64,000 bases of DNA from NCBI RefSeq assembly GCF_014696675.1, contig NZ_JACJQN010000009.1, forward strand, positions 179,217 through 243,216, read 5' to 3'. Origin of the DNA: Phormidium tenue FACHB-1052. Its GTDB lineage: Bacteria > Cyanobacteriota > Cyanobacteriia > Phormidesmidales > Phormidesmidaceae. The position numbers and the translations under genes are program-made. Shown piece by piece: positions 57,479 to 59,150 of this stretch. Within the stretch, counting starts at the first letter, position 1. Every line of letters begins with the position of its first letter. The notes under the pieces were generated by a model that did no database searches, was not told the origin of the DNA, and saw only the letters and a list, made by a program, of their open reading frames with translations.

Positions 57479-57508
57479 TGGCTTGTGGAGACGCGATCCC
57501 TCGTGTCT

Positions 57509-57670
57509 CTACGAGGTCGCGCCTTTAGGTCTGACAAAATAGGCAAAGTGCATAGGGTAGCCATCAGCGTAGAGCTTATCGACTTGGTTTTGGGCGATGG
57601 CTTGGCTTTGAAACACATCTAAAACGGTCTCTCGACCATTGGCGTAGCGAACGCAAAGTTCCCAAATCAT
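57509..57670 (-). CDS. 53-residue conserved-looking small protein
   Basis: ATG 57670 to TAG 57511-57509 encodes 53 residues. The N-terminus is MIWELCVRYANGRETVLDVF; the C-terminal part reads LYADGYPMHFAYFVRPKG. AGGG lies about 8 bases before the ATG. The alternation suggests an alpha/beta fold: strand, helix with QAIAQNQVDKL, strand. It occupies the space between frr and the aroF leader, convergent to frr. No family is known to me, but composition, ribosome site and placement all support a real gene. Confidence 0.65.
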   Translation of the reverse strand: MIWELCVRYANGRETVLDVFQSQAIAQNQVDKLYADGYPMHFAYFVRPKGATS

Positions 57671-57859
57671 GGTGATTTCCCTAATGGCGGTCTGAAGCGT
57701 TGGTGCGTTGACAGGCCTGACTTTACGATGACTTCATGCAGGCCAAGTGTCCTCATCCTAGGTTTATCAACTGAGGATGTACTCCGAGAAATCCACGAAC
57801 TTAGACCGGCAACCTGCCGGAGATTCTGGGCTAGGCACAACTGAATTTTCTCACCCCGG

Positions 57860-57888
57860 TTGACGCTCCCTGGCAGCCCTGTTAGATT
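57860..57888 (+). promoter_or_regulatory. Promoter of the aroF leader
   Basis: TTGACG (57860-57865) and TAGATT (57883-57888) are separated by exactly 17 bases. The start should be near 57,895, about 20 bases before the first leader-peptide ATG. Everything from here to the aroF ATG would form one leader of about 350 nt. Confidence 0.75.
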
Positions 57889-57916
57889 GCAGATACGTTT
57901 CAGTCTTTCTCCAGCA

Positions 57917-57976
57917 ATGACCGCGACCGTAAGAGCATTTTATTTTTGGTGGCAGCCGTCGGTTCACAGGTCGTGA
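57917..57976 (+). CDS. Aromatic leader peptide 1 of the aroF attenuator
   Basis: ATG 57917 to TGA 57974-57976 encodes the 19-residue MTATVRAFYFWWQPSVHRS. Five consecutive codons (8-12) specify Phe, Tyr, Phe, Trp, Trp, the three end products of the pathway that aroF opens. Its last codons (57960-57970) form the first arm of an antiterminator stem. A ribosome finishing at the stop would cover that arm; one stalled at the first aromatic codons would leave it free. No Shine-Dalgarno is visible. The role is inferred from sequence architecture. Confidence 0.8.
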   Translation: MTATVRAFYFWWQPSVHRS

Positions 57977-58007
57977 GCACCATTTGTGTTGCCAACCTTG
58001 TGAACCG
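57960..58007 (+). promoter_or_regulatory. Antiterminator stem of attenuator 1
   Basis: CGGTTCACAGG (57960-57970, inside leader peptide 1) pairs with CCTTGTGAACCG (57996-58007), 11 pairs with one bulged T. The 3' arm shares AACCG (58003-58007) with the left arm of terminator 1, so the two structures exclude each other. Confidence 0.75.
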
Positions 58008-58036
58008 CAGAGCTTACCCTCTGCGGTTTTGTTTTT
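58003..58036 (+). terminator. Attenuator terminator 1
   Basis: Perfect 10-bp stem AACCGCAGAG / CTCTGCGGTT with 6-nt loop, followed by TTGTTTTTTG. It ends a transcript that contains no gene other than leader peptide 1, which marks it as a conditional terminator upstream of aroF. Confidence 0.85.
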
Positions 58037-58071
58037 TGTTTGATCCCTTAGCCCTGTTTTCTTTAACCGCT

Positions 58072-58137
58072 ATGCAAATCTCCATCACCAATTGGTACTA
58101 CGGATTTTTTTACACCACCGGGTCAGGCTTGTGGTGA
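58072..58137 (+). CDS. Aromatic leader peptide 2 of the aroF attenuator
   Basis: ATG 58072 to TGA 58135-58137 encodes 21 residues beginning MQISITN. Then come Trp8-Tyr9-Tyr10, Gly, Phe12-Phe13-Tyr14 and, after TTGSGL, a terminal Trp21. The aromatic run starts at residue 8, exactly as in leader 1. Codons 16-19 (ACC GGG TCA GGC) contain the first arm of the second antiterminator. The same reading logic applies: stalling at W8-Y10 frees the arm, while completion to the stop masks it. A longer upstream extension of this frame exists, but it would run through terminator 1 and lacks a good start. Confidence 0.8.
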   Translation: MQISITNWYYGFFYTTGSGLW

Positions 58138-58168
58138 TAGGTCTTCCTATGCCCTTTACCTGACCCGG
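58118..58168 (+). promoter_or_regulatory. Antiterminator stem of attenuator 2
   Basis: CCGGGTCAGG (58118-58127, inside leader peptide 2) pairs perfectly with CCTGACCCGG (58159-58168). The 3' arm shares ACCCGG with the left arm of terminator 2, so formation of one excludes the other. Confidence 0.8.
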
Positions 58169-58195
58169 AGCCGCAAGCTTCGGGTTTTTTGTTTT
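58163..58195 (+). terminator. Attenuator terminator 2
   Basis: ACCCGGAGC (58163-58171) and GCTTCGGGT (58177-58185) form a 9-position stem with one G:T pair and loop CGCAA, followed by a T-run (58185-58190, then GTTTT). Located 53 bases before the aroF ATG. Confidence 0.85.
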
Positions 58196-58247
58196 CTACT
58201 GCGACCTGTTCTTCAACCCCCAAACCGTTCTTTACCCTTTTTTCACT

Positions 58248-59150
58248 ATGAAAGACGCCGTTTTGACCCGTAAATCTAGCCCTGACCACCGCTCGGTGGT
58301 GGCCCTCACTGATACCGTCGCCATTGGTGGCGACACCCTACTGATTGTGGGCGGCCCCTGCGCTGTCGAAAGCGCCGAGCAGATGGAGCAGGTGGCCCAC
58401 CATCTGGCCCCCACCCCCGTGCAGGCGCTGCGGGGCGGGGTCTTCAAGCCGCGCACGTCGCCCTACGCCTTCCAGGGCATGGGAGAGGCCGGGCTGCGGA
58501 TTTTAGACGACATTCGGCAGCGGTTTCAGATGCCGGTGATCTCTGAGGTGATGGCCATGGATCAAATTCCCGCGATGGTGGCCCAGGTGGATGTGTTGCA
58601 GGTGGGCAGCCGCAACATGCAGAACTTTGACCTGCTAAAGGCCCTGGGCCGCATCGACAAGCCGGTGCTGCTCAAGCGCGGGCTGGCCGCCACCGTCGAA
58701 GAATTTGTCATGGCGGCGGAATACATTCTCAGCCACGGCAACCCCAACGTGATTCTCTGCGAGCGGGGCATTCGCAGCTTTGATACCTACACCCGCAATG
58801 TGCTTGACCTGGGGGCGGTAGTGGCCCTAAAACAACTCACCCACCTGCCGGTGATGGTAGACCCCAGCCATGCCGCCGGTAAGCGCGAGCTAGTACCTGC
58901 TCTGGCGCGGGCGGCGATCGCCGCTGGGGCCGATGGGCTAATCGTCGAGTGCCACCCGGTGCCCAATAAGTCTGTGTCAGATGCCCGCCAAGCCCTTACC
59001 CTAGAGGAGATGGTTTTGCTAGCCCGCAGCCTCGACCCCATTGCGGCAGCTCTGGGTCGCCGCTTAGCCACCGATGGTGACGCGATCGCTGGTGCCACTG
59101 CTTTCAAGGCGTCAGATCGGCCTCTGGCAGGAACTGCGATCGCCGCCTAA
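58248..59150 (+). CDS. aroF: 3-deoxy-7-phosphoheptulonate (DAHP) synthase
   Basis: 300-residue type I DAHP synthase of the AroF/AroA-gamma subgroup, condensing PEP with erythrose 4-phosphate at the entry to the shikimate pathway. LLIVGGPCAVESAEQM, RGGVFKPRTSPYAFQG, MQNFDLLKALG, PVLLKRGLAATVEEF, ILCERGIRSFDTYTRN and VMVDPSHAAGKRELV supply substrate and metal sites. No long N-terminal regulatory domain (ACT or chorismate mutase) is present. Control by end products may therefore lie chiefly in the tandem attenuator upstream. ATG 58248; no Shine-Dalgarno seen. Confidence 0.96.
   Translation: MKDAVLTRKSSPDHRSVVALTDTVAIGGDTLLIVGGPCAVESAEQMEQVAHHLAPTPVQALRGGVFKPRTSPYAFQGMGEAGLRILDDIRQRFQMPVISEVMAMDQIPAMVAQVDVLQVGSRNMQNFDLLKALGRIDKPVLLKRGLAATVEEFVMAAEYILSHGNPNVILCERGIRSFDTYTRNVLDLGAVVALKQLTHLPVMVDPSHAAGKRELVPALARAAIAAGADGLIVECHPVPNKSVSDARQALTLEEMVLLARSLDPIAAALGRRLATDGDAIAGATAFKASDRPLAGTAIAA

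Follow-up and report, generated by a model that had tools for sequence, protein, structure and literature searches.

The trp and phe operons of Escherichia coli are controlled by leader-peptide transcription attenuators, and AroF, a 3-deoxy-D-arabino-heptulosonate 7-phosphate (DAHP) synthase, is the first enzyme of aromatic amino-acid synthesis. In the accessible parts of the respective papers, a single leader containing Phe-Tyr-Phe has been proposed for aroF of Corynebacterium glutamicum (PMC4046766), and the uORFC-13-1 motif before aroF of Acholeplasma is described, by comparison, as a candidate phenylalanine-sensing leader frame followed by a terminator (PMC8632094). Here, we analyzed the aroF leader of the cyanobacterium Phormidium tenue FACHB-1052 in a 64,000-nucleotide stretch (contig NZ_JACJQN010000009.1, positions 179,217 to 243,216 of the forward strand), referred to throughout as the window. 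Judged from the sequence of the window and of its relatives, this leader very probably consists of two ribosome-mediated attenuators in series, both sensing the charging of the transfer RNAs (tRNAs) for phenylalanine (Phe, F), tyrosine (Tyr, Y), and tryptophan (Trp, W). Like the leaders of E. coli trp and phe and of C. glutamicum aroF, it has codons for pathway products in a short frame, mutually exclusive helices, and a biosynthetic target. Unlike those single leaders, it has two complete modules in series with three aromatic amino acids in each, a three-strand design in which the 3' codons of the peptide itself form the antiterminator arm, and a cyanobacterial host. The Acholeplasma motif differs in being a single module from another lineage, with at least one Phe codon named in the text available (PMC8632094).

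Several systems with two units in one leader or operon have been reported. The tandem attenuators of Salmonella mgtCBR, termed a singular example in the passage available, resemble the aroF leader in having two short frames in one leader, each an attenuator; they respond to two signals (ATP and proline), act additively, and have stems unlike intrinsic terminators (PMC3641672). Unlike in mgtCBR, the two gates before aroF hold codons for the same amino acids, have intrinsic-type terminators, and precede a biosynthetic target in 14 sampled families; judged by their codons, the two modules do not answer different signals. In excerpts from the sources, two attenuator units are predicted in the aromatic supraoperon of Streptococcus pneumoniae (PMC1173090), and a second terminator in tandem is reported in the rimP leader of some Gammaproteobacteria (PMC2965389). 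Both are similar to the aroF leader in having two predicted units per operon, and the S. pneumoniae case also concerns aromatic synthesis, but a pair of aromatic leader peptides is not mentioned in these passages, and the phyla are different. The erm systems, such as ermBL/ermBL2, carry two leader peptides in one 5' region and differ, according to the part of the source consulted, in using antibiotic-triggered translational attenuation rather than amino-acid-dependent transcription termination (PMC8274638).

For cyanobacteria, one excerpt states that there were no reliable data on attenuation as of 2016 (PMC4833913), and in another, on Synechococcus elongatus, polymerase peaks near gene starts were set apart by the authors from canonical attenuation (PMC3219970). 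In the accessible portions of the openly licensed literature, with subscription journals mostly outside its scope, we found no description of the aroF leader or of any cyanobacterial leader-peptide attenuator. An earlier note on this DNA, made from its letters alone, knew of no tandem attenuator of this kind in a cyanobacterium. This holds for cyanobacteria within the literature covered, but a tandem arrangement of leader peptides as such has a precedent in the portion of the mgtCBR report available (PMC3641672).

Layout of the aroF leader and its chance expectation

The features of the leader are collected in Table 1. All of the elements named in the earlier note, namely a promoter, two aromatic frames, pairs of exclusive hairpins, and aroF, were found in the window. 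The two antiterminator arms, R1 and R2, form 10 pairs in module 1, one of them G-U, and 10 perfect pairs in module 2. Because R2 overlaps the terminator's 5' arm in each module, the antiterminator and the terminator are mutually exclusive. Searches of the leader-2 peptide against Pfam and NCBIfam gave no match.

Table 1. Positions of the aroF leader elements and of aroF within the window
Feature	Position	Strand	Remarks
Promoter-like site TTGACG-N17-TAGATT	57860-57888	+	9/12 consensus matches; predicted start near 57895
Leader frame 1, MTATVRAFYFWWQPSVHRS, then stop	57917-57976	+	ATG start; 19 amino acids; codons TTT TAT TTT TGG TGG
Module 1 antiterminator arm R1 (GGTTCACAGG)	57961-57970	+	within leader-1 codons
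Module 1 antiterminator arm R2 (CTTGTGAACC)	57997-58006	+	overlaps 5' arm of terminator 1
Terminator 1	58002-58037	+	hairpin 58002-58029 and T-rich tail
Leader frame 2, MQISITNWYYGFFYTTGSGLW, then stop	58072-58137	+	ATG start; contains W-Y-Y-G-F-F-Y
Module 2 antiterminator arm R1 (CCGGGTCAGG)	58118-58127	+	within leader-2 codons
Module 2 antiterminator arm R2 (CCTGACCCGG)	58159-58168	+	overlaps 5' arm of terminator 2
Terminator 2	58162-58195	+	hairpin 58162-58186 and T-rich tail
aroF, DAHP synthase of Bacillus subtilis-like catalytic type, without N-terminal FXD domain	58248-59150	+

The chance of meeting such an arrangement was evaluated by scanning both strands of the 64-kb window for short frames with at least five aromatic residues in nine, using cut-offs of -10 kcal/mol or better for the terminator and -15 or better for the antiterminator. 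Six aromatic short frames were observed, and the two of the six with a terminator downstream and an antiterminator are exactly the two leaders. Twenty dinucleotide shuffles of the window had means of 2.2 aromatic frames, 0 with a terminator, and 0 with both. Taken alone, the hairpins between 57500 and 58500 are unremarkable (2 found versus 1.4 expected), and the promoter site there is within chance (1 found versus 0.5 expected). The weight of the case is in the combination of elements and its conservation, not in single hairpins or the promoter site.

Conservation and selection in both modules

We compared 143 loci, comprising 80 named GTDB loci, 30 from the host's own and related genomes, and 33 further upstream stretches. 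These gave 129 regions, the window's own included, once exact repeats were removed. Three of them (L031, L038, and L060) were dropped because of contig ends, leaving 126 usable regions, 122 of which have a distinct leader-1 stretch. All of the 126 contain leader 1, which was detected by rule in 121 and by eye in the other 5; leader 2 occurs in 124, with 123 detected by rule and 1 by eye. Of 125 regions, the window's among them, 59 have a promoter-like site with at least 9 of 12 consensus matches before leader 1, compared with 9.6% of shuffles, and all 40 upstream sites among those listed have a spacing of 17 bases. Between the modules, where 59 stretches measure 40 bases or more, no site of at least 9/12 was observed, against 3.7% in shuffles. 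A promoter-like site that is upstream only fits a single transcript, though it is not proof of one.

The aromatic codons of both leaders are more frequent than expected when the letters at the second and third codon positions are redistributed within alignment columns over 500 trials. In leader 1, 576 of 630 core codons (five per leader) are aromatic versus 479.5 expected (standard deviation 5.6; maximum of the trials 497). In leader 2, the count is 605 of 658 for seven core codons versus 491.4 expected (standard deviation 6.2; maximum 509), taken over the 94 leaders that end in the common C-terminal form, a form that leader 2 of the window lacks. No stops were observed in the core codons, where 11.6 and 16.8 were expected for leaders 1 and 2, respectively. 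Phe, Tyr, and Trp interchange at the core sites, while Cys, Ser, and Leu are nearly absent there. Leader 1 contains F, Y, and W in 126, 124, and 126 of the 126 regions, and leader 2 in 124, 121, and 124 of its 124. This interchange among three residues, with few others and no stops, points to selection in both leaders for an intact reading frame and for aromatic residues as a class, and such codon-level selection is consistent with the aromatic-codon frame of a ribosome-mediated attenuator.

These observations also bear on whether the leader could be a metabolite riboswitch, a T-box, or a protein-dependent attenuator whose aromatic frames are incidental. Tandem T-boxes exist. Tandem riboswitches are known as well, as in metE of B. 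clausii in the passage available (PMC3641672). A search of all Rfam 15 families at E up to 5 over 57500-58500 gave no match on the plus strand, which is that of aroF, and one chance match on the minus strand, so that the leader was not assigned to the T-box or any other Rfam family. Together with the codon-level selection for aromatic residues and the conserved pairing inside the reading frames, this makes an explanation of that kind extremely unlikely.

Covariation in the helices was evaluated with two alignments of 61 chosen representatives, A1 for module 1 (60 of the 61, L030 left out) and A2 for module 2 (all 61). Antiterminator 1 has 94.5% of cells paired and 8 of 11 pairs changed on both sides, and none of 500 shuffles reached any of the five measures. 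Terminator 1 has 98.8% of cells paired and 5 of 10 pairs changed on both sides (0/500 shuffles on all five measures). For terminator 2, 93.3% of cells are paired and 5 of 10 pairs changed on both sides, which 8/500 shuffles reach, with 57/500 reaching its pair types. Antiterminator 2 has 89.9% of cells paired, and its covariation score was reached by 0/500 shuffles. For all four helices, the covariation score was above that of every slid version. Four of the 60 aligned sequences encode Arg (CGC) in place of His (CAC) in the leader peptide, and in these R2 has a matching change from T to C. Each R1 also pairs better with its own R2 than with that of another genome: -26.4 versus -21.9 in module 1 (n = 124) and -20.4 versus -17.5 in module 2 (n = 107). 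Duplexes of shuffled R1 gave -13.7 and -13.1, and were as good as the native ones in 0.3% and 8% of cases. These duplex statistics, and the folding statistics below, use 124/126 module-1 and 107/124 module-2 cases, because the terminator finder failed on the remainder, several of which were matched by the RNA model. Both modules have the exclusive antiterminator and intrinsic terminator of a ribosome-mediated attenuator, with weak covariation in antiterminator 2 (see below). By eye, a small extra hairpin (TTTCC...GGAAA) was also seen between the leader-1 stop and R2 in Nostocales loci such as L015, L036, and L048; it is a possible pause site.

The distribution of the modules was followed with covariance models R1 (module 1) and R2 (module 2), distinct from the arms of those names; the stretches behind the models begin 24 bases ahead of the leader end and hold little of the aromatic run. 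On the aroF strand, model R1 matches 77 and model R2 matches 76 of the 80 named loci, always in the order R1, R2, aroF on the same strand where both match. The three named loci with neither match each have fewer than 110 bases of upstream sequence. Among 388 genomes of the host's class, its own included, short aroF was found in 142, model R1 in 143, and model R2 in 151. By both models, 131 of the 142 short-aroF genomes have a pair of leader frames in one predicted transcript, each frame served by an attenuator of its own, while 7 have R1 only, 4 have R2 only, and none has neither. Reading the 11 exceptions brought the genomes with both modules to 133 of 142. One more combines a replaced first module with the second, none lacks both, and the remaining eight have a single module: module 1 in six (G339 and five members of a single family, f11) and module 2 in two (G268 and G364). 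G342 has both modules on reading, though it was an exception by the models, and G348 has module 2 together with the module 1 end at the contig edge. Genomes with both modules span 14 families of the sample. The earlier note had asked whether the aromatic runs and competing stems are conserved in relatives; this check was run, and they are, in leader 1 (126/126) and leader 2 (124/126), with covariation at the codon and helix levels.

These counts help to weigh the idea that one module alone regulates, while the other, its leader decayed, persists as a vestigial or constitutive terminator. One module can suffice, as seen in the 6/142 genomes with module 1 only and the 2/142 with module 2 only. 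However, 133/142 keep both, and within the aligned subsets both keep their aromatic codons and exclusive helices; since a vestigial module would decay, their intactness argues against this idea, which we regard as unlikely.

The 246 genomes without a short-aroF match had R1 matches in 5 and R2 matches in 16, mostly weak. In G036, G164, and G295, both modules were found with no aroF match, and as the contig stops within ~430 bases downstream of module 2, aroF would be cut off. Locus L186 (G170) has module 1 without its terminator, fused directly to a broken aroF remnant, with no second module seen, and the R1-only genome G175, with no aroF match, appears to hold a decayed leader. Across 292 genomes sampled from the whole phylum, a single model match fell outside the class, and it was weak and palindromic. 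Weak extra model matches were also considered as copies before other genes, at ten places in nine genomes and in G083 and G243, and rejected: by eye, none has an aromatic leader with an R1 arm, and they look like ordinary terminators. This inspection covered 5 of the 12 genomes with second model-R2 matches and 6 of the 13 with weak R2 only and no short aroF. Separately, a contig labelled Candidatus Obscuribacter (L075) carries a cyanobacterial-type aroF (66% AroF identity) and both leader frames, with an R1 match and no R2 match; this would point to wrong binning or a transfer.

One locus, L172 (G116), has a first module whose sequence is wholly replaced. Its peptide is MNNFRFNFWFVEGT, with a GTG start, and the leader lies 321 bases upstream of aroF. 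The replaced module keeps the architecture, with aromatic codons, an antiterminator (duplex -22.7), and a terminator (-12.6). The upper stem of terminator 1, GCAGA/TCTGC, lies outside the antiterminator and is almost invariant in the 60 aligned sequences, with the pairs in A1 columns 65-70 unchanged in 57-60 of 60. This near-invariance exceeds what pairing alone explains; possibly the leader RNA, once terminated, acts in trans or is bound by a partner. A reading in which the terminated RNA or the peptides act in trans, as a small RNA or regulatory peptide, with attenuation of aroF secondary, draws on this stem and on the trans-acting leader peptide peTrpL of S. meliloti, known from part of its source (PMC7298713). 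We consider it very unlikely, given that L172 replaced the whole module 1 sequence while keeping its architecture, that F, Y, and W interchange freely, and that the strong model matches with surroundings read are all at aroF, its remnant, or a cut end.

Predicted folding and the effect of ribosome position

Folding was predicted with an assumed ribosome footprint that ends 13 bases beyond the first base of the codon in the A site. As a folding intermediate, we used RNA that ends just before the 3' arm of the terminator, and R2 was taken as held by R1 above 0.5. With no ribosome, R2 was held by R1 in 124/124 cases for module 1 and 85/107 for module 2. A stall at the first aromatic codon gave 124/124 and 105/107, and one at the middle aromatic codon gave 117/124 and 106/107. 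At the last aromatic codon, the numbers were 2/124 and 84/107, and with the ribosome at the stop codon, they were 0/124 and 0/107. Over all positions, a stall is predicted to leave R2 held at 555 of 772 leader-1 and 757 of 836 leader-2 aromatic codons. At equilibrium, a ribosome at the stop codon gave the terminator in 124/124 and 107/107. Predicted folding thus places the stalled ribosome so that the antiterminator arm is freed, and the ribosome at the stop so that it is covered, for most aromatic codons, though not for the final one in leader 1. When the leader is not translated, readthrough is predicted; in the E. coli trp leader, unlike this prediction, lack of translation favours the terminator.

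These predictions suggest how the leader may work. When charged Phe-, Tyr-, and Trp-tRNAs are plentiful, the ribosome would reach the stop codon and cover R1, and the terminator would form. A ribosome stalled in the aromatic run would leave R1 free to capture R2 before the 3' arm of the terminator is made. Having passed the first gate, RNA polymerase would proceed to a second, similar one, such that a full aroF transcript would require both gates to be open and aroF would be read only when charged aromatic tRNAs are short. From the need for both gates, we infer a multiplicative response, with readthrough approximating the product of two similar probabilities. A readthrough of this type would give a steeper response and a lower leak than a single gate. 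As F, Y, and W are all present in both leaders, both gates would read a single signal, and the arrangement would not be an AND of different ones.

Several points weigh against reading the leader as two aromatic attenuators in series. The last aromatic codon of leader 1 is predicted not to open the first gate (the 2/124 above), and the last two positions of the leader-1 run are past the point up to which a stall is predicted to leave R2 held, with means of 0.33 and 0.04. At equilibrium, with the complete terminator and a stall at the middle codon, the antiterminator exceeds 0.5 in only 23/124 and 36/107 cases, so the terminator usually wins; in module 1 of the window, a ribosome whose A site holds the first aromatic codon gives 0.93 for the terminator and 0.06 for the antiterminator. 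The mechanism would therefore rest on the antiterminator forming first, as the order of transcription allows. By eye, no clear Shine-Dalgarno site was seen before either leader of the window. A single module suffices in 8/142 genomes. Covariation of antiterminator 2 is weak, with 2 of 9 pairs changed on both sides (reached by 303/500 shuffles) and 8 further pair types (reached by 500/500), in part because of a difference in register: by eye, module 2 R1 lies further from the stop codon in the window and its close relatives and nearer to it in most others. Relatedness alone can let sequences beat covariation shuffles without structure. Finally, the leaders were chosen by aromatic density, which favours the codon count; the covariance models, using little of the aromatic run, recover the same loci. 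With these points in place, the reading proposed in the earlier note, two aromatic attenuators in series before aroF, is supported by conservation, by covariation at the codon and helix levels, and by the promoter-like site being upstream only.

The AroF enzyme and the meaning of two predicted gates

The target of the leader lies in the pathway of the amino acids that it would sense. AroF matches only PF00793 and, weakly, NeuB, and no FXD domain was found at E up to 0.001. It scores above the cut-off for TIGR01361, and PRK08673 is matched only from position 71 of 338. Its best solved relatives are 1zco, 3pg8, 4grs, and 1rzm, and we take it to be of class I-beta. The FXD domain is allosteric. 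Of six long-paralog N-termini scanned, five match FXD (PF18152), four of them above the curated cut-off. Taken together, these matches bear out the earlier suggestion that AroF lacks an obvious regulatory domain.

The upstream regions of 27 of the 41 listed long paralogs were taken, and a candidate leader was absent before 26 of them. Four of the 27 regions have a frame of 4 aromatics in 9, and no terminator was found with three of these. The single exception, L147 (G081), precedes a long-type DAHP synthase, 467 bases upstream of the part that was matched. Its frame, MKNSQFWYSFTFRSATGVRHRSG, is followed in the fold by a hairpin that is strong and U-tailed; this hairpin was scored poorly by the terminator finder. 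With FXD in 5/6 long paralogs and no leader before 26/27, attenuation goes with the enzyme that has no extra domain, which suggests a trade between RNA-level control and allostery across DAHP synthases. Another DAHP synthase, of the E. coli aroFGH type, is encoded in the window's own genome (L202, contig C18); the locus taken around it shows no aromatic leader frame on that gene's strand. No type II DAHP synthase was found in this genome. In the window itself, a 53-amino-acid frame on the minus strand (57509-57670), between frr and the aroF leader, is possibly a real small gene.

With no allosteric domain on this DAHP synthase, its control would fall mainly to double attenuation. The case rests on ~130 genomes, 14 sampled families, and two structures per module under selection. 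If true, this would be the first documented ribosome-mediated attenuation system in cyanobacteria, and also the first case of two attenuators in series that respond to a single signal. It raises the question of why two gates should be kept for one signal, with product-type readthrough, a wider dynamic range, and different stall positions as options; the natural single-module genomes, with module 1 only or module 2 only, are ready-made comparisons. Removing or retuning the two gates would be an obvious handle for aromatic production in cyanobacteria. More broadly, we lean towards the view that much of the oxygenic cyanobacteria may share a class-wide series pair of sensors for the same three amino acids, whose readthroughs would multiply to give a steep, low-leak switch that replaces allostery at the entry to the shikimate pathway.

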